From Verrucomicrobiia bacterium (lineage in GTDB: Bacteria; Verrucomicrobiota; Verrucomicrobiia; Limisphaerales; UBA8199), in the NCBI GenBank assembly GCA_035946615.1, contig DASYZB010000136.1:1-64000 (forward strand): a stretch of 64,000 bases of DNA, in the 5' to 3' direction. Shown piece by piece: positions 2,988 to 51,413 of the stretch (positions within the stretch are counted from its first letter, which is position 1; each line of letters opens with the position of its first letter). The notes under the pieces are model-generated. The model was not told the origin of the DNA. It saw only the letters and a program-made list of their open reading frames with translations, and searched no databases. A program made the position numbers and the translations under genes.

Positions 2988-3851
2988 TCAGTGGGTGAGG
3001 GCATAGACGGCGATGTTGAGGGCGAGGCGCTGGCCGTCTTCGGGGCTGATGCCTTTGCCTTCGTTGCAACTGTTGTTGGCGCTGAAGGCGCAACAGAGGC
3101 CGTCTTCACACAAGACAGCCACGAGGTTTCCTTTGTAAAAGAGGCCCTCGAGCTGGATGTCGCGCGGTTCATTGAGGCAGCGGATGCGACTCAGCTTGTA
3201 AAAAGAGCGATAAATCAAGTGATCGTAGGGAATCGGCTTGACCGCTTCACCCGGGAAAATCCGGCTGAATTCGCGCCGCCAGGCCTTCGGGAAATTCGGA
3301 TTGGTGCAACAACCCGAAGCCAGGAAGAACCCGCCATGGCTCAGATAAACTCGCAGGTTGTCGATTTCAGACTGAGTCAGGGTGAAATCATTGTGGCCGT
3401 TCATGAAAAGGAACGGGGTTTCAAACAGGTCCGGGTCGGTGAGGCTGATTTTGCGTTCTTCCTGGACCTTGATAGTCGAGGCGCGGGAGACCAGATTCAT
3501 GAGTTCCTGGCCAACACCGCCGCAGTCGTTGCCATCATTGGAGCTATACTTGACGCGGCCCATAAAGAAGGCGGCCCGGTTGTCCTTGATCTGGTTGTCC
3601 TTGATCTCCTGGCCACGGGCGGAAGCGAGTAAAGACCAGACCAGGAAACCGAGGGCGAGCGCAAGTCGAGTGGGGCGAAGGACAGGGGAGAATCGACAGG
3701 GAGGACCGTTGGATGGACTACACAGAGAGGGCCCGCTCTCCCCCGCCCTCTCCCTTTCTGAAGGGGAGAGCGGGAATGCTCGGCACCTTACAGTTGTAGC
3801 GCATGCCGCGAGCGCGTGAAGTTCGGGTATGGATGTTTTGGCAATTATCAT
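2988..3851 (-). CDS. DUF4159-domain protein, last gene of the MoxR/Bat operon
   Basis: The protein (287 aa from the ATG at 3851) has a hydrophobic export-like segment at about residues 62-79, then a DUF4159 domain. This family has a glutamine-amidotransferase-like fold and usually ends MoxR-Bat clusters. Typical blocks are AFFMGRVKYSSNDGND, DPDLFETPFLFMNGHNDF, LRVYLSHGGFFLASGCC and ALNIAVYALTH. The start is chosen because the upstream stop and this ATG overlap as TAATG. Residues about 27-51 are encoded by a dispersed CTCTCCC palindromic repeat that has kept the frame open, which puts unusual sequence before the signal-like segment. A later non-canonical start is possible. The domain has no proven catalytic function. 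Confidence 0.8.
   Translation of the reverse strand: MIIAKTSIPELHALAACATTVRCRAFPLSPSERERAGESGPSLCSPSNGPPCRFSPVLRPTRLALALGFLVWSLLASARGQEIKDNQIKDNRAAFFMGRVKYSSNDGNDCGGVGQELMNLVSRASTIKVQEERKISLTDPDLFETPFLFMNGHNDFTLTQSEIDNLRVYLSHGGFFLASGCCTNPNFPKAWRREFSRIFPGEAVKPIPYDHLIYRSFYKLSRIRCLNEPRDIQLEGLFYKGNLVAVLCEDGLCCAFSANNSCNEGKGISPEDGQRLALNIAVYALTH
3700..3776. repeat. CTCTCCC/GGGGAGAG dispersed repeat inside a coding sequence (copy 1)
   Basis: The sequence holds a hairpin-forming CTCTCCC...GGGGAGAG core preceded by a conserved flank, GAGGACCGT then ATGGACTA at 3713-3720. A second copy with the same flank and core lies at 42518-42610 in the debranching-enzyme gene. Aligning by eye, about 36 of 42 positions of the flank and first arm agree. 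It is read in frame within the DUF4159 gene. Confidence 0.7.
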
Positions 3852-6079
3852 TACCTCAGCCCCCAGTGTTTGCGCGCCAGCCAATCCCCGCATAGGCCCG
3901 CCAGCACCAGGGTGAGGGTCCAGCCGTTCAGGCCAATGGGCCGGTGTACCATTTTGGCGTGGCGGACCTCCTGGATTTTGCCTTTGATGCGCGAGACCAA
4001 GTCCGCTGCGTCCGGACAATCCTCGACTTTGAAGGCCAAGCCATCGCTCACGGAAGCCCATTGGCGCAGGGTTTCCATGTTGCGCGCGGTATTTTGGAGT
4101 TCGATATTCGGTTCGCGAATCTCGATTGGCCGGGTGCAAACCGGCGTCTTTAAGTTGTCGGTCACCAGGACTGTGTAGTCCCCGGCTTTTTGAGCATAGA
4201 AAGAGAAATCCACAGGCTGAAGGGGCTCCAACGCGATGGCCTCCTCATGGAGCACCTGTTTGGCTTCGTTGAGCACACGCACAAAAAATGTTTGGTTCGA
4301 ATTTGTGAGGCTGGCGGGACTGGGCTGCTTTTCGATTGTGACATGGACATCCATGCCCGGGTGCAGTTCCTGGTCGGCGAGGTGAATGGCCACATCCTGC
4401 CGGGCGGTGTCGCCCAGCCAGCGGAAGAGCTGGCGCCAGAAGCGATCGAATTGGCCGGGGTTGGAATCTTTTGCCAGGCGCCAGCGCCAGAAATTTTGCG
4501 CACACAGAACCGCTGAGAGACCGGCGCCATAGCGCTGGGCCGCCATGAGGATGCGTTTGCCCTCGGGTCCCTGATCGGCAGGATGGCGCATCCAAACCAG
4601 CGCCCCTGGTTTGGCCGCGTCCACCCGCGCGTATCTTGAAAAGGTTGGCAACTGGGCCCATGCCTCGGCTGAGGAGCGGTCCTCGGCGATTTGGAATACG
4701 GGGTTTTCGAGCGCTTCCTGAGTCAACTGCAAGTGAAAGGGCCGCTCCGGGTCAGCGAGGGCGTCTTCAGATGAAAAGGTCACCGGCAGCAACTGTTCAA
4801 GGCGGCTATTTTTCCAGGAACTATCAAAGGTCGCCGGACCGCCGATGAGCAGCACGCCGCCGCCCAACTCGCCGCAAAACCGGGCGAGCATCTCCTGTTG
4901 TCCGGCGCTCAGGTCTGATGGGCGCAAGTTGGATAGGACCACAATCCGAAACGGGGCCAGTTCGGCCAATGACGTGGGAAACCCATTCACCAATTCGCCC
5001 GCGCTCTCCACATTCTGCCGGAAGACGGAGTTATGCGATGTGCGCGCCAGGCCCGTGATCTTGATGGCCGGATCGGAATGCAAGGCGAGGCTGATAAACT
5101 TGTAATCCCAGGTAAGGGCCCCTTGCATATAAAGCAGCCGCAGCTCTTTTTGATCGGCAATCCGAACCGGGACGCTGGCCAGCGCGTTGAGGCACTTAAG
5201 GCCCGGCTGTTCAGGAGGCACCAATTGCACGGTGTAAGTATGCGCGCCCTGGGTTTCCTCAGTTTGCCGAAAGCTCTCGAGCCAATCGCGGGCGCCTTTG
5301 CCGGGGTTCGCGGTTCGCTTTTGCACAACCTGGCCGTCCCGCAGCAGCAGCAGATCAAAAGCGGGCATTGGTTCGGTGTCCATCATTTCCAGGCGCGCTG
5401 AAATGCTGAAGGAGGTTTTACTCGCCACTGTCGAGGGGGCTTCGACCCGGCGCAGGGAAAGGGTATTGAGCCCCTGGTCACTGCCGAAACCGAGGCCAAT
5501 GAATGGGGTATGGGTTGCAAGCAGCCCGCCTAAGGCGCGCGAATTGTCGGCATCTTCGTTAGCGCTCCCGTCGGTTAGGGCAATGACGGCCAGCGGCTGT
5601 GGCGTCGAGCCCTCCAGCGCTTGGGCAATTGCGCCCGCCAGATTGGTGCGTTTGCCTGACGGCTTGGTGGCAGCCAGTCTGCGACCGTCGGCCAGTTCGG
5701 TGGATTCATCAAAAAGAAGGGCGCGCACGGGCACGCCGGTGGCCTTAAATGCAGGGAGCAGGCGCTGGCGCAGGAATTGGAGGGCCTCTTCATAGCGTGT
5801 TGTGCCGTTCTCGGCCAAAGACATGCTCTCGCTGCGGTCCATCAGCAAGACGACCGGACGCGATGAGGCAGACAAGGCCGCTCTATTCAGCCAAATAGGC
5901 CGGGTTGCAAGAAAGAGCAATGGCAAGAAGGCGGCCAGGCGGAGCACGGCCAGATAGGCAATGCGGGAGCGACTCAAACCGCGTTGATGCTGTTGCCAGG
6001 CGGCAAAGGCCAGGGCCGCGCTCACAGGGATTGCAGCGAGCCAGCCGAGGGGGAATTCAAAGACGATTGCCGCAGTCAT
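3851..6079 (-). CDS. Membrane-anchored VWA-domain protein of the MoxR/Bat cluster (glutamine amidotransferase-like region)
   Basis: About 742 residues. The N-terminus has two hydrophobic segments (FEFPLGWLAAIPVSAALAFAA and a second near residue 45), followed by a von Willebrand A domain with the MIDAS motif DRSESMS and a later LTDGS. A region with VVLSNLRPSDLSAGQQEML and GGGVLLIGGPATF is typical of the GATase1-like segment of this family. A C-terminal hydrophobic helix (WTLTLVLAGLCGDWLA) suggests a second anchor. It is a structural or adaptor partner for the MoxR ATPase rather than an enzyme. The ATG at 6079 is preferred because longer starts would overlap the upstream gene's end; the gap is 22 bp. 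The stop overlaps the next start as TAATG. Confidence 0.85.
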   Translation of the reverse strand: MTAAIVFEFPLGWLAAIPVSAALAFAAWQQHQRGLSRSRIAYLAVLRLAAFLPLLFLATRPIWLNRAALSASSRPVVLLMDRSESMSLAENGTTRYEEALQFLRQRLLPAFKATGVPVRALLFDESTELADGRRLAATKPSGKRTNLAGAIAQALEGSTPQPLAVIALTDGSANEDADNSRALGGLLATHTPFIGLGFGSDQGLNTLSLRRVEAPSTVASKTSFSISARLEMMDTEPMPAFDLLLLRDGQVVQKRTANPGKGARDWLESFRQTEETQGAHTYTVQLVPPEQPGLKCLNALASVPVRIADQKELRLLYMQGALTWDYKFISLALHSDPAIKITGLARTSHNSVFRQNVESAGELVNGFPTSLAELAPFRIVVLSNLRPSDLSAGQQEMLARFCGELGGGVLLIGGPATFDSSWKNSRLEQLLPVTFSSEDALADPERPFHLQLTQEALENPVFQIAEDRSSAEAWAQLPTFSRYARVDAAKPGALVWMRHPADQGPEGKRILMAAQRYGAGLSAVLCAQNFWRWRLAKDSNPGQFDRFWRQLFRWLGDTARQDVAIHLADQELHPGMDVHVTIEKQPSPASLTNSNQTFFVRVLNEAKQVLHEEAIALEPLQPVDFSFYAQKAGDYTVLVTDNLKTPVCTRPIEIREPNIELQNTARNMETLRQWASVSDGLAFKVEDCPDAADLVSRIKGKIQEVRHAKMVHRPIGLNGWTLTLVLAGLCGDWLARKHWGLR

Positions 6080-6101
6080 CAAAACTTGGAGTGGAAAGCC
6101 C

Positions 6102-8675
6102 TCAATGTTCAGACAGTTTTTGGAAATAAGTTTGTATGCGACTGCGGTAGTTCGGAGGGAACCGGGAAGGGTCCATGCTTGTAACCTGTGGCTGGTCTTC
6201 CTGTTTCGCCAACCGGGCCGAGGTCTCCGTCGAGAAGCGCTGCAGCTCATTCATAAGCATTTGCAAGGCATTCGGGTCAATCGGGCCCCCGCCCTTGAGG
6301 GTTTGTTCAAGCTGGTTGAGGAGTTGCCGGCCTTGATCGGTTCCCTGAGAGTCGCTGCTGATGCCGGCCTGCAAATTAGCGAGCGCCTCCTGAGCCTGGC
6401 CTGCCCGATCACCAGCGGAGGATTTGCCGTTGTGTTCGAGTTGCTTCAGGAGGCTGTCGAGTTGGGCCATGCCACGAGTTAAACCGCCCTTTTCATCGGG
6501 CTTCAGAGGGTCAGACTGGCGCGCCATTTGAAGGGATTTAGGCTGGCTTTGCTCGAAGGCCTTGCTGACCTGAGCCAGGGCGTCGCGAGCCTCGGCAGCG
6601 CGTTGCGCGGGCGGGACATCGCCGGGTGCCTGGCCTGGGGATTGTCCAGCCTGTTCGAGACGGTCCAACCGAGTGTCCAGGTCCACTTTGCGCTCGCCGC
6701 TGAGGGCCTCGCGCAAAGGGTCGCCGAAAGCAGCACGGGTGGGTTCCTCCTCAGCAGCCGACCGGAGCTGATTGATGGTCTCGCGGGCCTGCCCGGCAGT
6801 GCGGGCGCCCTGCTCAGCGGAGACCTGCCCATCCTGCCTGGCCATGTGGTCGAACGTTTGGATATGTTGATCGAGCATTTGTTTGAGCCGGTAGGCGTCG
6901 GCCAGCTGATCAGCGGTGGCTTGGCGTTGGAGTCGCTGGTTAAGCTGTTCCAATTTCTGCGTGGCATTGCTGACCGCCTCGGGCGCCTGGCTGCTGCCGT
7001 GCGCGAGCGCGTTTGCGGCTGATGCCATAGCCTTCTGCGCCTGCTCGGAAGCGCCTTGCGATTTTTTAAAAACCTGCGGGTGCTGTCCCTGAAACTGGTT
7101 GAGATCATTGCGGAGTTGTTGCTCCTGTGAGGCCAGCCGCGAGCCTTCATCGGGCGAAGCCGCCTCAGACGATTGCTGTTCGATTTGGCGCTGTTGTTCG
7201 AGTGTTTTCTGAACGAAATCCGCGCCGGCCTTTGATTCGTCACGGAATTCGGCCATGTCTTTTAGGCTTTTGCCTGCCTCGGCAGAGCCTGATGATGCCT
7301 GCTGGCTTTGTTTCTGAAATGCGCCGGGCTGCCGGTTCACGCTTTGTTGAAAGAGTCTTCGAGCAGCAACCAGATGGGCGAGCGCATCGCGCTCAGGGCC
7401 TTGGGCTCGCTGCATTTGGTTCGTTTGAAGAAGGGTCGAGGCGGCTTCGAGGCTCTTTTGCGCCTCTCCAATACGATGCAGCGTCTCCGCGTCCGGCTGG
7501 TCTCCAACTTGGGCCGCCAGGTCTGCTTTCAGATGTCCTGCCGCGCCTCCAATGTCTTGTTCGGTCTCTGCAAGTTTTCTCTGGTCTGCCGAAGCGGTTT
7601 GAACGGGGCGCTGAATATGTTGGTAGGTTTTGCGGATAACCTGTTGCTGCTGTTGAATCATCCCCGAGAGTTGGCTGAGGGTCTTATAGGCCTTGCCCTC
7701 CCGGCCTCCAGGCAGGTTCATCAGCTCCTGCTGAAAAGGGCGCACTTCCAAAAAATAGAGTTGAGACGCGTAGGAGCTTTGGTGATCGGTGCGCGCGCGC
7801 GCGAAATAGGCAATCACGTCCCAATTCGTCAGATGCAAGCTGCTGAGGTCCAGGGCGGGCTGATATAAGGCGTAGTGCGGTTCGGAGGGCGCCGCCAGCG
7901 GATGGGTAACTTCCTCTCCGCCATTGAGCGTTGAGAACCAGCCGACATTGGTGAGAGCCTGATTAGCCGCCGCTTCAATCTGAAGCCGAACGATGTCCAC
8001 GCGGGTGACGGCCAGGTCCGCACCCGGCTCGGTAATCCGCACCTCACCCCAAGCCTGGTTTGATTGGATGCTATTGGTTGGCGGCAGAGCCAACTCCAAT
8101 GGTTGTTGAGTCGGGCGTGGTCGGACCGAAGTGATCTTTTGCGCCGCCATTAGCCGGCTCCAGGGAGCTGAACGCTCCAAAAACAAGACGGTCACCGCTG
8201 CCGTGAGGATGAAGGCAAATAAAAAGCCCAAAGGCCTGCAGGCTGAGAACGGTTGAGGGGATGCACTGCCCGTCAGCAGATGATGAGTTTGGCGGGCGAT
8301 GCGCAGGGCAAAGGATTCCGAGCGGGCCTGGCTGGGGCGGTTTTCCAGGAAAGCAAGGGTGTTCAACCGATCGAGCAAACGAGCGTCGGATTGCTCGACA
8401 GTTCCAGCCAGCCAGCCCCGGTCAGGCCCGCCTTTCAGCAAATAAAACAAAACCATCAGCCACGCTGAAAATCCGCAGCCGCCGATGAGGCTGAACCCGA
8501 TGGCCGCTGTGGTCTTGTGAGTAATCCATCCACGGAGGATGGCCGTCCCCAAGGCAAGGGCTGCCAGACACAGCAGAATGCCCAGCGCCGAACTCAATTC
8601 CAGCAGCCATAATAATTTCCAGCGCAGTTCCGCCCGTTTCAGGCTATGTTCGACAATCGTAAAGCGCGATTTCAC
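6102..8675 (-). CDS. Large DUF4175-like membrane protein with coiled-coil C-terminus
   Basis: 857 residues. Two N-terminal transmembrane helices (about residues 20-50 and 60-85) and one near 150-170 are followed by an extracytoplasmic region. The second half is long, rich in Gln, Ala and Glu, and probably coiled coil (many QQQ, EQAQKA and LEQLNQRLQRQ stretches). This layout matches DUF4175-type proteins in alphaproteobacterial and PVC-group MoxR/Bat clusters. No catalytic motif is visible. Its start overlaps the stop of the upstream BatA-like gene by 4 bp (ATGA), so the two are probably translationally coupled. The role is probably structural in the envelope-associated MoxR/VWA system; the family assignment is from architecture and context. 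Confidence 0.75.
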   Translation of the reverse strand: MKSRFTIVEHSLKRAELRWKLLWLLELSSALGILLCLAALALGTAILRGWITHKTTAAIGFSLIGGCGFSAWLMVLFYLLKGGPDRGWLAGTVEQSDARLLDRLNTLAFLENRPSQARSESFALRIARQTHHLLTGSASPQPFSACRPLGFLFAFILTAAVTVLFLERSAPWSRLMAAQKITSVRPRPTQQPLELALPPTNSIQSNQAWGEVRITEPGADLAVTRVDIVRLQIEAAANQALTNVGWFSTLNGGEEVTHPLAAPSEPHYALYQPALDLSSLHLTNWDVIAYFARARTDHQSSYASQLYFLEVRPFQQELMNLPGGREGKAYKTLSQLSGMIQQQQQVIRKTYQHIQRPVQTASADQRKLAETEQDIGGAAGHLKADLAAQVGDQPDAETLHRIGEAQKSLEAASTLLQTNQMQRAQGPERDALAHLVAARRLFQQSVNRQPGAFQKQSQQASSGSAEAGKSLKDMAEFRDESKAGADFVQKTLEQQRQIEQQSSEAASPDEGSRLASQEQQLRNDLNQFQGQHPQVFKKSQGASEQAQKAMASAANALAHGSSQAPEAVSNATQKLEQLNQRLQRQATADQLADAYRLKQMLDQHIQTFDHMARQDGQVSAEQGARTAGQARETINQLRSAAEEEPTRAAFGDPLREALSGERKVDLDTRLDRLEQAGQSPGQAPGDVPPAQRAAEARDALAQVSKAFEQSQPKSLQMARQSDPLKPDEKGGLTRGMAQLDSLLKQLEHNGKSSAGDRAGQAQEALANLQAGISSDSQGTDQGRQLLNQLEQTLKGGGPIDPNALQMLMNELQRFSTETSARLAKQEDQPQVTSMDPSRFPPNYRSRIQTYFQKLSEH

Positions 8676-37291: not shown

Positions 37292-37812
37292 AATACACAT
37301 TATTAATTTTGCTGACGATTTATGGACAATGTAGCCAAGTTTTTGTTCAACGCAAGGGCGCGGTGACGCTTTTCGGCGGAGCGCGCCGTCCCCGGGCGCA
37401 TAGCAGTGAACTGGCTGTCCCGGAGGGACATCCGACAATAGCCCAACGCTACAGCGTTGGGTGTGGAGTTTGGAGATTTTCATAACGACCTGATCTCCTT
37501 TTGTCGGAAACTTTGTCGGAGACTTGTCAAAGCCCAACCTCGCTGAAGCTCAGAACCTGCTGAGCATGGCAACCACTCGGCTCAAGAGGCTCTCGGCCTT
37601 CAGCGCTCCCCGCGCCAAAGGGGAAGCGCCCTCTGGTAGAGGTCCAAATAAACCGCCGCTTTTACCGCCGATAAGGCAGCAAACCGCCGCGTAACCTTTG
37701 AACTTGTGATGCGTGAGCGATCAGCCGGGCTTGACCAAACCACTCGACAAAGTTTCCGACAAAGGAAGGCAAAACGCGCCTTGCTAAATGTCCAAGCTCC
37801 AGGGGACTCACG
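37292..37812. other. Non-coding stretch holding MITE-like element copy A
   Basis: No gene was recognised between the CxxC protein start and the GspE stop. Most of the space (37463-37803) is copy A of the MITE-like element described separately. Just left of the element the sequence is CAACGCTACAGCGTTG (37444-37459), a palindrome of 6-bp arms. Confidence 0.6.
37463..37803 (-). mobile_element. MITE-like repeat element, copy A, with nested terminal inverted repeats
   Basis: Copy A ends on the right in AAATGTCCAAGCTCCAGG (37786-37803) and on the left in a TGGAGTTTGGAGATTTTCAT-type sequence (37464-37483). Inside these lie the inner inverted repeats: TTTGTCGGAAACTTTGTCGG (from 37500) and GACAAAGTTTCCGACAAAG (37746-37764). 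Aligned with copy B (49211-49452) in the opposite orientation, both ends, including a stretch starting ACTTTGTCGAG and ending TCAAGCCCGG, are nearly identical. The centre differs. No gene is present inside. A target-site duplication could not be recognised. The outer end sits 10 bp after the GspE stop. Confidence 0.7.
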
Positions 37813-40419: not shown

Positions 40420-40843
40420 GCGACTTTGTTTCCCGAGAACCGCGCCGGTTTTGCCTAACCCGGCTTACGCGGCTTCTGGGGCATTTTTCGTATAGCAAAC
40501 TTCCCGCCAGTTCACCAGCGGGCGGCACTCAACTCTATGGCATTGAGCTCCGGCCCGCATTTGGAACGGCATAACTGCCTGAGAACAGCAGCAGTTGTGC
40601 CGTTATCACGTGGTTTGGCTTTAAACTCGTCAAACTCAAGCAAAGGCACACTGGCCTTCAGCAGGCTGCAACGCCTCAGCCGCCGGATTATTGGCTTCCT
40701 CCCAGACAGTCTGCCCAGATTTTACACTGCGGCAGTTGCTTTCCGCTGGGAACCTGCCAATCCTAATCTGTTTCTGGAAGGCCCCGAATAGCCCGAGGCC
40801 GCTCTCCAGGACGGGGTTACAAGTGCAACAACTGGTTCCTTTG
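40420..40843. other. Divergent intergenic region with a stem-loop
   Basis: The 424-bp gap between the TPR/MshEN gene and the debranching enzyme has no credible gene, although frames run through it. A 14-bp inverted repeat AACGGCATAACTGC (40565-40578) pairs with GCAGTTGTGCCGTT (40591-40604) with one G-T wobble and a 12-nt loop. It could be a transcription or RNA-level control site for the plus-strand gene, or a REP-type element. Confidence 0.45.
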
Positions 40844-43800
40844 ATGGTCCCTGCCCCGGGCGATTCCTGGCAACGGTTTGTCGGGGACCGGCTCCGAATC
40901 ACCCTGCGCGACCGTGAGGGACGCAGCCCATCCGAGGGTTGGCAGGCATTCCTGCGCACGAATCTGGGACGCGCAGAGCACTTGCGCCGCGAAATCCTTC
41001 AAGCCCACACGCGTGGGTTGCCCTTGGCAGGGGAATCCTGGCGCGACATTCCCATGAAGCGGGATGAGGCGGGCTGGGCACTGGAAATGCCGCTGGCCGA
41101 GGTGGGCTTTTTTAAAGCAAAAGCATACCTGCTCGACCCGGCAGGCTGGCAGCATTGGCCGGAAGGGCCTGATTTTCGCATCTCTGTCCATCCCGACCGC
41201 TATCGAACCGCCAATATCCTTTATTGCGCGTTTCCGCGAATGTTTGGCCGGACAAAAGCCCTCGCCAGCACCCACAACGAAAATCAGGAACGGGTGCTGG
41301 GCCCACTGGACGAAAGCGGTTATACCGTCATTCCTCCGTCTGGGAAACTACGGGATGTCATCGAACAGTTGCCGCATATCTTTGAGACACTCGGTTGCAG
41401 CATCCTGCAATTGCTCCCGGTTAATCCCGTACCGACGACTTACGCGCGGTTTGGGCGATTTGGGAGCCCTTATGCGGCCCTGGACTTGACTGCTATTGAC
41501 CCGGCGCTGGTGGTGTTCGATCGGCGCACCACGGGCATCGACCAGTTCCGCGAACTGACCTATGCGGCCCATCTTCACGGCGGGCGGGTATTTTTGGATA
41601 TCGTCATCAACCATACCGGGTGGGGGTCGCTCCTGCAGGAGCGGCATCCGGAATGGTTCCTGCGCTCGGCCAATGGAACGTTCGTCAGCCCGGGAGCGTG
41701 GGGCGTAACCTGGGAAGACCTCATCGAGCTGGAACACCAGAACGTCGCGCTTTGGGATGAGTTGGCGCAGGTGTTTATTACCTGGTGCCGCCGGGGTGTC
41801 GATGGGTTCCGATGCGATGCAGGCTATAAAGTGCCTGTGCCGGCCTGGCAGTATATCGTGGCCCGAGTGCAGCAGGAATATCCAGAGACCATCTTCCTGC
41901 TCGAAGGCCTGGGCGGGGCCTGGGAAACCACTGAAGCCTTGCTGAGCGAAGGAGGGATGCAGTGGGCGTATTCCGAGCTGTTTCAGAATTATTCCGGCGC
42001 GCAGGTGGCCTCGTATCTGGAGCACAGCATCAAGCAGAGCGGGCGTGCCGGCCTCCTGGTTCATTTCAGCGAAACTCACGATAACGATCGGCTGGCTGCG
42101 CGGGGCCGCGCCTGGTCTCTTTTGCGCAACCGGCTGTGCGCCCTGGCGAGCGCCAGCGGCGGGTTTGGATTCACCTGCGGAGTCGAATGGCTGGCCACCG
42201 AGAAAATCAATGTCCACGCCAGCACGGGCATGAATTGGGCTCACCCGGAGAACCTCGTGCCGGAATTGGCCAAGCTCAGCCGCCTGCTTTCCGAGCATCC
42301 TTGCTTCTTCGACGGCGCGCGCATTACCCGGTTGAGCAGCCTTGATTCACCCGTGTGCGCGATGCTGCGCACATCCGAGGAAGGCAAGGATACCGTGCTG
42401 GTCGTGGTCAACAACGATGTGGAGCGCTCGCAACAATTTGCGTTGGGCACACTGACGTGCCTGTCGCCTGCACAGGAAGTATTCTTCAAGGCGACGGCAC
42501 AGTGGGTGGACCTATTGGGAGGACCGTGGAATGGACTAGACACGGAGGGACCCCTCTCCCCTCCCGCTGCGACGACGCGACAGCGCGGCGAGTTGGAAGG
42601 GGAGAGGGAGAAGCATCGGCAGATTAAAGATGGCGCCGAGGCCAAACCGGTCTTGACCTTGCCGCCGGCAGCCGCCTACTGCCTGGCGGCGGCGCCCGTT
42701 CCCGCCGGTCTGAGCGGGGAGTCGTACCGCCGCGCCAGGGCGCGTGCTGCCTGGGCTTTGCAGGCCTTGGCATACCTGAAGCCGATCGAAGAATTGGGCG
42801 GCTTCGAGTGGACTGGCCTCGCTTCTCTGGTGGACCGCTCCCCTGCCCTGTTTCTAGGGGCTGTTTCCAGACTTTCAACCGCGCCTCTTTTAAACAGGGA
42901 TTTGGCCCACCTGATGGACGAAGAGGGCTTCGCGCCGGTGGTGCAGTGGACAAGGCTTGATGCCCGGCGGGTGACGCCTGTGCCGCCGGGGCACTGGTTG
43001 CTGCTCGAAGATAACGCCCCATTCCGCGCCGCCCTCAACATCGAGGGGGAGCAAATTACAGAAAACCTTGAGTCTATTACAGCGGGGAAAAACCACATTG
43101 TTTGTTTCCCGCCGCGCCGTAAGGCGGCCAACGCAACCCTTCAGCTTGAACTCTACGGCGGACCAGACCGGCACATCGAGGCTGCGATTCGCTTCCTGGA
43201 TGCCAAACCAATGTTGAAACCCGCCGCGCCGCGCAACAGCGATCTGGTCTTGCTGACAAATGGCCGGGGCGGCATGGGCCGTCTTCGGGTGGACCTGGGC
43301 AGGGTCCTTTCGAAATACGACTGCGTCCTGGGCGCCAACTTACATCCAAGCCTGCCCGTTGACCGGCATATCTTTGCCAAAAGAATTCGTGTTTGGGTCG
43401 ATGCCGACGGCTTTATTTCTCCACTCGATTTCCGGAGCCTGGCCTCATTTGATCCCGGTCCGCCGGCTGTGTGGGATTTTGTCGCTCCTGCCGGCGACGG
43501 CAGGTCGCTTGAGATTCAAATGATGGCCGCCATGCCCGAGGGCCTTAATACAACCGTATTCCGCTTTCGCCGTCCCACAGAGGCTCAGGCGGCAGGCAAA
43601 CAACTGCCGGCCCGCGCCGACGTGCGGCTGACAGTTCGGCTGGACATCGAGGACCGCAATTTTCATTGGGAGACCAGGCGCAACGGCGGCGGCGAATATC
43701 ATTTCTCGACCCACACGCGCCCAATCGCCGCGTCGGTCCAGAATCCTGCAGATATTCACGGCGCCGGCTCCAAAATCCACTCAGGCTCCGATCCGGTAAC

Positions 43801-45334
43801 TCTCGCCGGATTCGAGTTCGCCCCGGCCCCAGACCGCCGTTTGCGCGTTTTCGCCAGCAGCGGTTGCTATCATCCGCAGCCGGAGTGGAGCGAAAATATT
43901 CCTCATCCTATTGAACAAAGCAGGGGGCAAGTGGGCGCTGGAGACGCTTTCAGCCCAGGCTGGTTCGATCTGCCGATGGCCAAAGGCGCTGAGGTGGTAC
44001 TGGTGGCCACGGCCGAAGCCCCTGACACGGACGCGGCATCGTTCAAAAAAAACGCGGCTGCTGCGGTCGGCTCAGGGACTCTACTGCAAGCCGGGGGCCA
44101 GGACCCATTCGCTGCCAAACTCCTCCGCGCCATCCGGGCATTCGTTGTGCGCCGCGGCGCCGGCAAGACGGTTATCGCCGGCTATCCCTGGTTTTTGGAT
44201 TGGGGCCGCGACACTTTTATCTGTGCGCGCGGTTTGTTGGCGGCAGGTCTGGTCCAGGAGGTGGAACAGATCATCCTTACTTTCGCGCGCTTTGAACGGG
44301 ATGGCACTTTGCCCAACACAATCTTTGGCGAAGACGCCTCGAATCGCGACACCTCCGATGCCCCGCTTTGGTTTGGCCTGGTGTGCGAAGAGGTTGCCCA
44401 GGCCTATGCCGCCTCGGGCTCAGGGGAGTCTGTCGAAATGTTCTATAACACCCGCGTGGATGAGAAGGGCCGCTCACTTCGCCAAGTGCTCGAGAGCATC
44501 GCCGATCATTACTCGCGCGGCACTCCCAATGGGATATGCATGGACCCTGATTCCGGGCTGATTTGGAGCCCGGCTCATTTCACCTGGATGGACACCAATT
44601 ACCCAGCGGGCACCCCACGCGAGGGTTACCCGGTTGAAATCCAGGCGCTTTGGATTCGATTGCTCCGCCAAATCGCCCGCATCGGCGATTCTTCTGGCCG
44701 CGCAGCCGTTTCGCAAATTGCCGCGCGCGCGCAAAGCGCCTTGGAGAGCCGCTTCTGGCTCGAGGCGCAGGGCTTTTATTCCGACGTGCTGCCGGCCAGG
44801 CGCAGCCAACTGGCCGCACAAGCCAAGGCCGATGACGCCTTGCGCAGCAACAATCTGTTCCTGGTGAGCTTGGGCCTTGTGACAGGCCAGCGCGCCCGGC
44901 GCTGTGTCGAGGCTGCCCGCCGTTACTTGATTGTGCCCGGGGCCATGCGCTCGCTGGCGCCCCTGCCTGTTTCGGTTCCGCTGCCCATTTACAGCAACAA
45001 CGGCCAGCTCCTCAATAATCCCCGCGAGCCTTATTGGGACCGCTACGAAGGCGATGAGGACACGCGGCGAAAACCTGCGTATCACAACGGCACGGCCTGG
45101 ACCTGGACCTTGCCTGTCTTTTGCGAGGCGCTCGCGCGAGCCTGGGATTTTGCGGATGAACCTGTGGCCGCGGCCCGGGCCTACCTGGGAACCATGGCGG
45201 GCCTGATGGCCGAAGGCTGCCTGGGACAGATTCCGGAAGTCCTCGATGGCGACGCCCCTCATACGGCGCGGGGTTGCGATGCTCAGGCTTGGGCCGCGAC
45301 CGAGGCTCTGCGGGTATGGAAGCTCTTGGGATAG
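40844..45334 (+). CDS. Bifunctional glycogen debranching enzyme (GH13-like transferase plus GH133 amylo-1,6-glucosidase)
   Basis: About 1,496 residues from the ATG at 40844 (GTG at 40823 and TTG at 40691 are alternatives). The N-terminal half is an alpha-amylase-like barrel: ILQLLPVNPVPTTYARF, VFLDIVINHTGWG, GVDGFRCDAGYKVP with the nucleophile Asp, FLLEGLGGAWETTE with the acid/base Glu, and ETHDNDRLAARGR. The C-terminal half is an amylo-1,6-glucosidase (VIAGYPWFLDWGRDTFICA, NRDTSDAPLWFGLVCEE). Fusing the two activities resembles eukaryotic AGL-type debranching enzymes rather than GlgX. A dispersed repeat (42518-42610) is read in frame near residue 560-590 between the halves. It probably removes alpha-1,6 branches of storage glycogen. 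Confidence 0.88.
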   Translation: MVPAPGDSWQRFVGDRLRITLRDREGRSPSEGWQAFLRTNLGRAEHLRREILQAHTRGLPLAGESWRDIPMKRDEAGWALEMPLAEVGFFKAKAYLLDPAGWQHWPEGPDFRISVHPDRYRTANILYCAFPRMFGRTKALASTHNENQERVLGPLDESGYTVIPPSGKLRDVIEQLPHIFETLGCSILQLLPVNPVPTTYARFGRFGSPYAALDLTAIDPALVVFDRRTTGIDQFRELTYAAHLHGGRVFLDIVINHTGWGSLLQERHPEWFLRSANGTFVSPGAWGVTWEDLIELEHQNVALWDELAQVFITWCRRGVDGFRCDAGYKVPVPAWQYIVARVQQEYPETIFLLEGLGGAWETTEALLSEGGMQWAYSELFQNYSGAQVASYLEHSIKQSGRAGLLVHFSETHDNDRLAARGRAWSLLRNRLCALASASGGFGFTCGVEWLATEKINVHASTGMNWAHPENLVPELAKLSRLLSEHPCFFDGARITRLSSLDSPVCAMLRTSEEGKDTVLVVVNNDVERSQQFALGTLTCLSPAQEVFFKATAQWVDLLGGPWNGLDTEGPLSPPAATTRQRGELEGEREKHRQIKDGAEAKPVLTLPPAAAYCLAAAPVPAGLSGESYRRARARAAWALQALAYLKPIEELGGFEWTGLASLVDRSPALFLGAVSRLSTAPLLNRDLAHLMDEEGFAPVVQWTRLDARRVTPVPPGHWLLLEDNAPFRAALNIEGEQITENLESITAGKNHIVCFPPRRKAANATLQLELYGGPDRHIEAAIRFLDAKPMLKPAAPRNSDLVLLTNGRGGMGRLRVDLGRVLSKYDCVLGANLHPSLPVDRHIFAKRIRVWVDADGFISPLDFRSLASFDPGPPAVWDFVAPAGDGRSLEIQMMAAMPEGLNTTVFRFRRPTEAQAAGKQLPARADVRLTVRLDIEDRNFHWETRRNGGGEYHFSTHTRPIAASVQNPADIHGAGSKIHSGSDPVTLAGFEFAPAPDRRLRVFASSGCYHPQPEWSENIPHPIEQSRGQVGAGDAFSPGWFDLPMAKGAEVVLVATAEAPDTDAASFKKNAAAAVGSGTLLQAGGQDPFAAKLLRAIRAFVVRRGAGKTVIAGYPWFLDWGRDTFICARGLLAAGLVQEVEQIILTFARFERDGTLPNTIFGEDASNRDTSDAPLWFGLVCEEVAQAYAASGSGESVEMFYNTRVDEKGRSLRQVLESIADHYSRGTPNGICMDPDSGLIWSPAHFTWMDTNYPAGTPREGYPVEIQALWIRLLRQIARIGDSSGRAAVSQIAARAQSALESRFWLEAQGFYSDVLPARRSQLAAQAKADDALRSNNLFLVSLGLVTGQRARRCVEAARRYLIVPGAMRSLAPLPVSVPLPIYSNNGQLLNNPREPYWDRYEGDEDTRRKPAYHNGTAWTWTLPVFCEALARAWDFADEPVAAARAYLGTMAGLMAEGCLGQIPEVLDGDAPHTARGCDAQAWAATEALRVWKLLG
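42518..42610. repeat. CTCTCCC/GGGAGAG dispersed repeat inside the debranching enzyme (copy 2)
   Basis: Same structure as the copy at 3700-3776: a flank GAGGACCGTGGAATGGACTA, then CCCCTCTCCCCTC and the downstream GGGGAGAGGG arm, here with a longer loop. It is read in frame, encoding residues around 559-589, between a beta-rich amylase C-domain stretch (VDLLGGPWN) and KPVLTLPPAAAYCL. Its insertion does not break the gene. Confidence 0.75.
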
Positions 45335-45870: not shown

Positions 45871-45931
45871 AAGTCCTGGTTTAAATTTGTCACTTCCGCG
45901 AAGCTGAAGTGACAAATTTAAACCAGGACTT
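45871..45931. repeat. Long perfect hairpin with 26-bp arms (REP-like)
   Basis: The left arm (45871-45896) and right arm (45906-45931) are perfect reverse complements over 26 bp, separated by CGCGAAGCT. A further 4 bp (GTCA / TGAC) extends the pairing after one bulge. No U-tract follows. The arm contains AAGTCCTGG and TTTAAATTTG. It lies between the small protein at 45.6 kb and the promoter-like sequence at 46.0 kb. Its length and symmetry are more like a REP or small mobile element than a terminator. Confidence 0.65.
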
Positions 45932-49101: not shown

Positions 49102-49530
49102 AACTTATCGGTTCAAGCCCATTGGCCGCGCGTATCCATTTAAACCGGGCGCTGGCCGGCACGTCAAGCTGCGCCGAAAGGAACGGGCTTTCGAGTGTCG
49201 CCACGCGACGCCTGGAGTTTAGACATTTACCAGTCGCCTTTTGCCTTCGTTTGTCGGAAACCTTGTCGGAAACTTTGTCGAGCGGTTTGGTCAAGCCCGG
49301 GACTGAACGCTCACTCATCACGAGCTCAAAGTTTACGAGAAGGCGCTGGTCCTGGCCGGAAGCGCCCGAGAAACTTTCTGCTGGCTGTTGGGCTTTGACA
49401 AGGTTTCCGACAAAGGGAGACGAGATCGTTATGAAAATGTCCGAACTCCAGGGCGCCACTGCGCGGTGCGCCTGTTGTTCCGTTTAAACTGACTTGCCCG
49501 CCAAGGCCGATCTGCTTTAGGCTCATTGTC
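49102..49530. other. Intergenic region with MITE-like copy B
   Basis: No gene is recognised between the GH127 start and the sigma-54 regulator. The middle (49211-49452) is copy B of the MITE-like element. Frames running through it are spurious, as they encode repeats such as SETLSETLS from the 12-bp tandem unit. Confidence 0.6.
49211..49452 (+). mobile_element. MITE-like repeat element, copy B
   Basis: Copy B is bounded by CCTGGAGTTTAGACATTTAC (49211-49230) and AAATGTCCGAACTCCAGG (49435-49452), inverted repeats of about 18 bp with two mismatches. Internally TTTGTCGGAAACCTTGTC (49250-49267) and GACAAGGTTTCCGACAAA (49397-49414) are exact inverted repeats of 18 bp. The 12-bp unit GTCGGAAACYTT is iterated at the left. 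The centre is unlike that of copy A (37463-37803) but both ends match it in the opposite orientation. No transposase is inside. It is about 80 bp from the sigma-54 regulator start. Confidence 0.7.
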
Positions 49531-51009: not shown

Positions 51010-51413
51010 GCGGAGGTTTTTCGCTGTGACAGCGGCGTCTCATGCTGTCTGCGCGCTAAAAGCGCGCTTCCCTCTCATCCCTCGTAGGAGAGGGTCGGGG
51101 AGAGGAGGCTCCACTCGCTGCACCCGACAATGAAAGTCTTAAGCTTCACCAGCGAATAGGCCCCTCTCCCTAACCCTCTCCCCGCTGACGGGGAGAGGGA
51201 ACCTGGCAGCGCGCGCTATCAGTTTGCGTTGGTCGGCAGGCCATCACTCCCTCTCCTCCAAAGGGAAGAGGGGCGGCGCGCCGACGCTGCCTCCTGCCTT
51301 ACGGCCTTACCCGCCTTACCGGGCGTATCCTTTTTTGCTTTCCTTGCCGCGGTTGGGTCCTATCATCCCGGTTCCAGTCAGCGCAATCCGGCGCATGAGT
51401 GACGGCTAAACCT
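51010..51413. repeat. Intergenic cluster of CTCTCCC/GGGAGAG repeats
   Basis: Between the sigma-54 regulator and the aldolase at least three related hairpins occur: CTCTCATCC...GAGAGGGTCGGGGAGAGG (51071-51106), CCCCTCTCCC...GGGGAGAGGG (51162-51200), and CTCTCCTCC...GGGAAGAGGGG (51250-51272). A TACGG/CCTTACC-type repeat lies at 51299-51328. They are related to the in-frame copies in the DUF4159 and debranching genes but lack the ATGGACTA flank. Such elements are probably non-autonomous or REP-like. No gene is seen here. Confidence 0.6.

Follow-up and report, generated by a model that had tools for sequence, protein, structure and literature searches.

A dispersed repeat with IS630-type ends and a REP-like hairpin, apparently read in frame inside conserved genes of a Verrucomicrobiia bacterium

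Two repeats in a 64-kb stretch of DNA from a Verrucomicrobiia bacterium (the window; contig C136 of the host genome G000, 5.6 Mb in 161 contigs) are members of one dispersed family. The repeat is very probably a non-autonomous MITE of the IS630/Tc1-mariner type, as judged from its ends, size and copy number, and it seems to be of mosaic make-up, with a REP-like hairpin in its interior. Copies occur within open reading frames of unrelated conserved genes, and the inserted residues are lacking in the homologues examined.

In the proposed mechanism, the transposase of a complete IS630-family IS with matching ends (G000:C49) would mobilise the element in trans, recognising the terminal inverted repeats TACTGNNNRGWCC...TGRACTACA and inserting the element at a TA dinucleotide that is duplicated. 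The interior is a GC-rich REP-like hairpin. Short length, high GC content and a frequently open frame, together with a net length divisible by three in some classes (114, 126 and 156 bp, and 123 bp in relatives), would allow part of the insertions to be read through, adding ∼38–52 residues. Such inserts would presumably be translated and tolerated by the host protein where they fall in signal-peptide n-regions, in linkers between domains or in variable loops at the surface, and so survive, and out-of-frame genic copies would be removed by selection.

A family of short repeats

A preliminary description of the window had placed a shared repeat at 3700–3776 and 42518–42610. Both are there, and the resemblance is not due to chance (best non-self match in the genome, E 6e-30). 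The positions hold, but the boundaries were drawn too short: the element begins at ∼3695 and 42513, respectively, and runs past the hairpin.

3695..3829, + strand: MITE copy 1; left end GACAG in place of TACTG, right end diverged, position 3829 uncertain
42513..42633, + strand: MITE copy 2; intact left end TATTGGGAGGACC, right end shortened by ∼25 bp

Copy 2 starts at the TA of TATTG, and copy 1, which lies in a DUF4159 gene and is decayed at both ends, starts at the decayed equivalent. The left flank GGAGGACCGT occurs exactly twice within the window.

Searches of G000 revealed a dispersed family. A DNA search with the 42.5-kb copy gave 41 matches, and one with the consensus gave 77, some of which are hits of the self-complementary core. 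A nucleotide profile made from 16 full-length copies was then applied to 55 sampled stretches of G000 (∼232 kb in total), with a cut-off of 35 bits and only non-overlapping copies counted. It detected at least 61 copies, a lower limit for the genome because only the sampled stretches were covered. The profile matches copy 1 at 3696–3807 (E 2e-24) and copy 2 at 42513–42633 (E 2e-21). Genic copies are a minority in G000, ∼10 of the 61; codon-usage scores of the flanks gave a signal too weak for sorting all 61. Among 58 genomes searched, full-length matches were found only in G000, G008 and G010. In a degenerate exact scan of named genomes, the carriers of the family were MAGs of uncultured Verrucomicrobia (subdivision 3/Pedosphaera); in addition, one MAG belongs to Phycisphaerales and another bears the label Akkermansia.

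An intact unit typically measures ∼115–130 bp, TACTGGGAGGACC...GGACTCCTCAGTA, and is bounded by imperfect terminal inverted repeats. Net lengths in G000 are mostly 113–131 bp, with two copies of 156 bp; the length is 125 bp in G008/G010. The repeat is thus short (within the 70–300 bp range of MITEs), multi-copy and devoid of a transposase gene. Aligned copies share the layout TACTGGGAGGACCGTGGGATGGACTACACACAGAGGGA-CCCCTCTCCCC-variable-GGGGAGAGGG-AGAAGCATCGGCAGATTAAAGATGTAGTTCATGTTAGGGACTCCTCAATA/CAGTA, with a variable centre that is a plain hairpin loop in some copies and CTCCCGCTGCGACGGCGCGACAGCGCGGCGAGT in others. The imperfect inverted ends read TACTG-GGAGGACC..GGACTACA and TACTG-AGGAGTCC..GAACTACA; in G000 the terminal repeats TACTGGGAGGACC.. 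and TACTGAGGAGTCC.. are ∼60% identical over 28 bp. The inverted repeats of a 103-bp MITE in G045, described below, are near-perfect. In G008 and G010, which represent two other genera of the same family, the copies are uniform and have abrupt TACTG...CAGTA limits in unrelated flanks: of 50 copies, 46 carry TA on both sides, and the net length is 123 bp in 35. The loop of a different palindromic repeat, AGTCCGAAATCCGAA...TTCGGATTTCGG, which is very abundant in G009, G010 and G012, harbours one G008 copy (L081, ∼2000).

Ends shared with IS630 and the TA target

Genomes G000, G008 and G010 were searched for the DDE_3 domain (PF13358), and the flanks of the matches were then tested for MITE ends. 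On contig C49, G000 contains a 1,107-bp IS with a 347-aa transposase ORF and ends matching the MITE. The transposase matches the NCBIfam model for IS630 (NF033545) with 231.6 bits against a cut-off of 100, and the IS is bounded by TACTGACCAGTCCGTAATATAGACTACA and TACTCACCAGTCCCTAGCATAGACTACA, with TA first in each. The G000 MITE ends are only ∼70% identical to those of this resident IS (counted by eye); given this value, and the ∼60% between the left and right ends of a single MITE, it may be that the MITEs were moved by an IS other than the resident one. Ends of this kind also flank related transposases (64–72% identity) in G008, G023, G045 and G048. Between the G048 IS end TACTGCCTAGTCCGCAGCATAGACGACA and the G008 MITE end TACTGCCAAGACCGCGGGATAGACGACA, ∼4 of 29 positions differ (by eye). 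The MITE ends therefore have counterparts in autonomous IS630 elements, both the C49 IS and the IS630s of relatives.

The most direct view of the target site comes from G045, where a 103-bp MITE with near-perfect copies of IS630 ends interrupts a transposase gene. When the MITE is deleted and one TA is kept, one continuous alignment over residues 1–342 results; when both TAs are kept or both are lost, the alignment is broken. The TA target duplication can thus be read directly for this related MITE, not for any G000 copy. An empty-site comparison at the DNA level between a G008 copy and G012 met an intergenic region that is too diverged. Taken together, the dispersed copies, the ends shared with IS630, the TA duplication in one related MITE and the insert-free homologues described below point to a repeat that is, or has been, mobile.

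Two further observations concern the transposases. Near position 1398 of locus L126 (G008:C672), an IS630 end directly follows the apparent 5' part of a tRNA-Leu gene, a layout that looks like an IS inserted into the tRNA. In G031, some IS630-like transposase matches contain three to four in-frame TGA codons.

The hairpin core

The CTCTCCC hairpin core has a wider distribution than the full element. Some match to the repeat is present in 37 of the 58 genomes of the order, nearly all of them core-only among the matches listed, and in G009 and G036 the core is frequently arranged as inverted pairs, a REPIN-like layout. A core of this kind is also found in the window:

51159..51200, + strand: solitary REP-like hairpin core, CCCTCTCC...GGGGAGAGGG, intergenic, without MITE ends

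It matches profile positions 39–81 only (E 2e-4). The relation that the preliminary description had drawn between the hairpin and intergenic repeats at 51.07–51.27 kb is therefore correct for the core, which is shared, but does not extend to the element ends, which are absent there.

This distribution would fit a REP/REPIN-type system, in which a RAYT (TnpA-REP) single-strand transposase mobilises the hairpin itself and the flanks are incidental. A unit of that type is bounded by REP hairpins, whereas the full copies described here end sharply outside the core, at TACTG/CAGTA, and these ends match an IS630 transposon. Furthermore, the 103-bp MITE of G045 has the same ends without the core. A REP/REPIN-type origin of the element is consequently quite improbable, and the core is best regarded as cargo of the IS630-type MITE here, though it may move alone elsewhere. 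In G009 (L063, L118, L289, L293 and L295) the core lies within a different repeat unit with the flanks GGCTCTCC..GAGA / ..GCCGGCCGGTT.TCCTGCAAAGGTAC; this unit may represent another MITE family built around the same core.

Copies within conserved protein genes

Copy 2 lies in a gene that encodes a fusion of two enzymes.

40691..45334, + strand: alpha-amylase-like/glycogen-debranching fusion ORF (Pfam Alpha-amylase, GDE_N, GDE_C)
Host-insert junction sequence of the debranching fusion: WVDLLGGPWNGLDTEGPLSPPAATTR

The element is located in the linker that follows WVDLLG, and the ORF is open through it, which bears out the earlier suggestion that this copy is read in frame between two enzyme halves. 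It contributes ∼40 extra residues in frame, at ∼608–650 of the fusion. In seven homologues from the same family (58–65% identical) the linker is present without the insert, and nearly all of them read W-x-D-L-L-G-Q. Just 3' of the fusion gene, the window has a near-perfect 29-bp inverted repeat with a 3-bp gap at 45871–45931 (AAGTCCTGGTTTAAATTTGTCACTTCCGC).

Four further in-frame cases were found in G000, in the genes for UvrA, HypF, HemW and an HldE/RfaE-type kinase; in three of them the element is positioned as follows.

UvrA: element after residue ∼150
HypF: element after residue ∼499 of an 848-residue ORF
HemW (TIGR00539): element after residue ∼290 of a 480-residue ORF

In a concatenated search of six relatives, the homologous matches end at the insert and resume directly past it. 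The insert residues are absent from the four to five homologues of each of the four proteins, and alignments show that the inserts fall in variable loops; the UvrA of L163 has an unrelated long loop at the insert position. Comparison with solved structures gives the same picture: residues 487 and 547 of HypF correspond to chain residues 474 and 479 of PDB 3vth, residues 144 and 223 of UvrA correspond to chain residues 138 and 161 of PDB 3pih, and the insert is absent from both. In G010, one copy is in frame in a glycosyltransferase-like ORF (family assigned by motif only).

Open reading frames through the element could also be expected if its residues were an old, conserved part of each protein. 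The preliminary description had held that finding the same residues in homologues from unrelated genomes would indicate such an ancient segment; neither the seven homologues of the debranching fusion nor the four to five of each further protein contain them. The same DNA occurs, moreover, in unrelated genes and between genes, and is read in several different frames and in both orientations. An ancient protein segment can hence be given practically no credence.

It could be argued instead that the insert-bearing genes are dying, the element having entered genes that were already non-functional. Some copies (those in the DUF4159 gene and the debranching fusion) are indeed old and decayed. Yet these old copies are still in frame, the insert-bearing conserved ORFs of 375–1547 aa are free of stops and frameshifts, and the flanks in UvrA and HypF are ∼60–89% identical to relatives. 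Insertion into dying genes is thus unlikely. The open frames and the conserved flanking protein rather support the original proposal of a small mobile element that may enter coding DNA without destroying genes.

Another route to an intact protein would be removal of the insert from the RNA, in the manner of an intron, or its by-passing, so that the protein is made without it. The hairpin is strong: the consensus fold is more stable than its shuffles, with z-scores of −3.4 and −2.9. However, a scan of the window for described RNA families (cmscan) found no Rfam intron or ribozyme, excision would not call for the open frames seen in the in-frame copies, and genic copies are found in both orientations. 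This explanation is very improbable, and translation of the insert is the preferred reading. The sole RNA match in the window is Acido-Lenti-1 at 37416–37461 (− strand, 42.5 bits), beside a second dispersed repeat, TTGTCGGAAACTTTGTCGAGCGGTTTGGTCAAGCCCGG, which forms inverted repeats at 37464–37781 and 49232–49450, the inverted copy being ∼11.5 kb away.

Net lengths of 114, 126, 126 and 156 bp are found for the genic copies that can be bounded exactly. All four are divisible by three, as are 6 of the 15 other intact copies. An open through-frame was the criterion by which these genic copies were selected, so multiple-of-three lengths are expected and do not constitute an independent test. A built-in open frame as a design feature was considered and rejected, as the consensus is no more open than shuffled sequences (P 0.68 and 0.39). 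Taken as a set, the 23 intact copies have 1.87 open frames against 1.31 in shuffles, a value reached by 0.4% of shuffled sets, and this slight openness could be explained by selection on the genic copies. Since the consensus is not unusually stop-free, survival in genes probably reflects a GC-rich sequence, frame-compatible length classes and tolerant places. Five copies flanked by coding sequence without a through-ORF were assessed as gene-breakers and dismissed, each lying between two separate co-oriented genes.

Copies in signal-peptide n-regions

Copy 1 is located near the N-terminus of a protein with a signal peptide.

2988..3851, − strand: DUF4159 gene, with copy 1 between the start codon and the hydrophobic core of the signal peptide
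3851..6250, − strand: upstream gene; stop codon overlapping with the start of DUF4159

The reading frame is open through the element, and the earlier assignment of copy 1 to the N-terminus of DUF4159, in frame, is upheld. The best in-frame start 5' of the signal peptide is the ATG at 3851, which overlaps the upstream stop (TAATG), and the DUF4159 homologue of G004 has a comparable stop/start overlap and an n-region of ∼30 residues. The alternative that copy 1 is intergenic, upstream of the true start, was rejected: there is no in-frame ATG, GTG or TTG between the element and the signal peptide, and both the TAATG and the overlap in G004 oppose it. It is therefore most likely that copy 1 lies inside the coding sequence.

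Altogether, four copies are situated between an apparent start codon and a hydrophobic core: those in the DUF4159 gene, a lipoprotein gene on C48, an RCC1-like gene on C41 and a hydrolase gene on C54, the latter two named by motif only.

C48, ∼21.2 kb: lipoprotein gene, AAGGAGG...ATGAATAAATCGTT/TA...TA/TCTCTGCC..., the two slashes marking the element limits; lipobox LITGC

No convincing canonical start is found between the element and the core in these four, except for a GTG in the lipoprotein copy. The idea that the element carries a portable GTG start, prompted by this single case, was dropped, as the other cases are without it. The set leaves out the copies on C28, C8 and C46, the one at C48:74167 and both copies on C55, in which a start codon is inside or 3' of the element or the host start is unclear. 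One may speculate that the mosaic, with its IS630 ends and REP-like hairpin, has repeatedly served in Verrucomicrobia as a mutagen that inserts protein segments in frame, its kept copies being biased towards harmless or useful sites such as variable loops of housekeeping enzymes and, most strikingly, n-regions; we hold this broader view as tentative and rather doubtful.

Relation to known repeats and implications

Several known repeats resemble parts of the element. One is RUP of the pneumococcus, a ∼107 bp MITE mobilised by IS630-Spn1 that is intergenic and without open reading frames (PMC2229807). Both have terminal repeats matching an IS630-family transposon of the same genome, a TA target and many copies; the Verrucomicrobia element differs in being also in frame inside conserved genes and in having a REP-like hairpin.

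With regard to coding insertions, a counterpart is RPE (Ogata et al. 2000/2002), a palindromic repeat of 105–150 bp that is in frame in many unrelated protein genes and also intergenic (PMC10969869, PMC2229807). Such coding palindromes have been known in Rickettsia since 2000 (PMC10969869, PMC2229807); the target duplication of RPE is listed as unknown and no transposase is named (PMC2229807). The likeness is one of description: palindromic repeats in frame within unrelated genes, together with intergenic copies. Like RPE, the element is in frame within UvrA, HypF, HemW, the kinase and the debranching fusion and absent from their homologues. In contrast with RPE, an IS630 source and a TA duplication (in a related MITE) are apparent, the phylum is another one and genic copies are the minority given above. 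ERIC/IRU, YPAL and the Coxiella QMITE1/2 elements are MITEs with in-frame fusions to host genes (PMC2229807, PMC5896051), and part of a predicted signal peptide comes from a YPAL copy and part of a C-terminus from a QMITE2 (PMC2229807, PMC5896051). Here too the likeness, in-frame fusion of a MITE to host genes, is by description; the differences are the several Verrucomicrobia copies inside signal-peptide n-regions and the identified IS630 source. Finally, the core hairpin, which is widespread in the order, resembles REP/REPIN sequences (PMC3116915; GTAG/CGTC repeats, PMC3733652), both alone and as inverted pairs, but the element as a whole is delimited by IS630-type ends and targets TA.

In-frame MITE fusions are thus already known from RPE, ERIC, YPAL and QMITE, and what is new here is their occurrence in Verrucomicrobia and the IS630 source. 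No description of a MITE of this kind in Verrucomicrobia was found in the open-access literature. An IS630 source joined with coding insertions like those of RPE and a core resembling REP makes a variant, not a new kind of element.

With the transposase family identified, the ends clear and the target a TA, the way in which mobile DNA ends up being read within conserved genes is open to testing. Solved relatives or assays exist for UvrA, HypF and HemW, and the price of gaining 40 residues could be measured with them. In environmental genomes, ORF extensions and linkers can be the remnants of MITEs.
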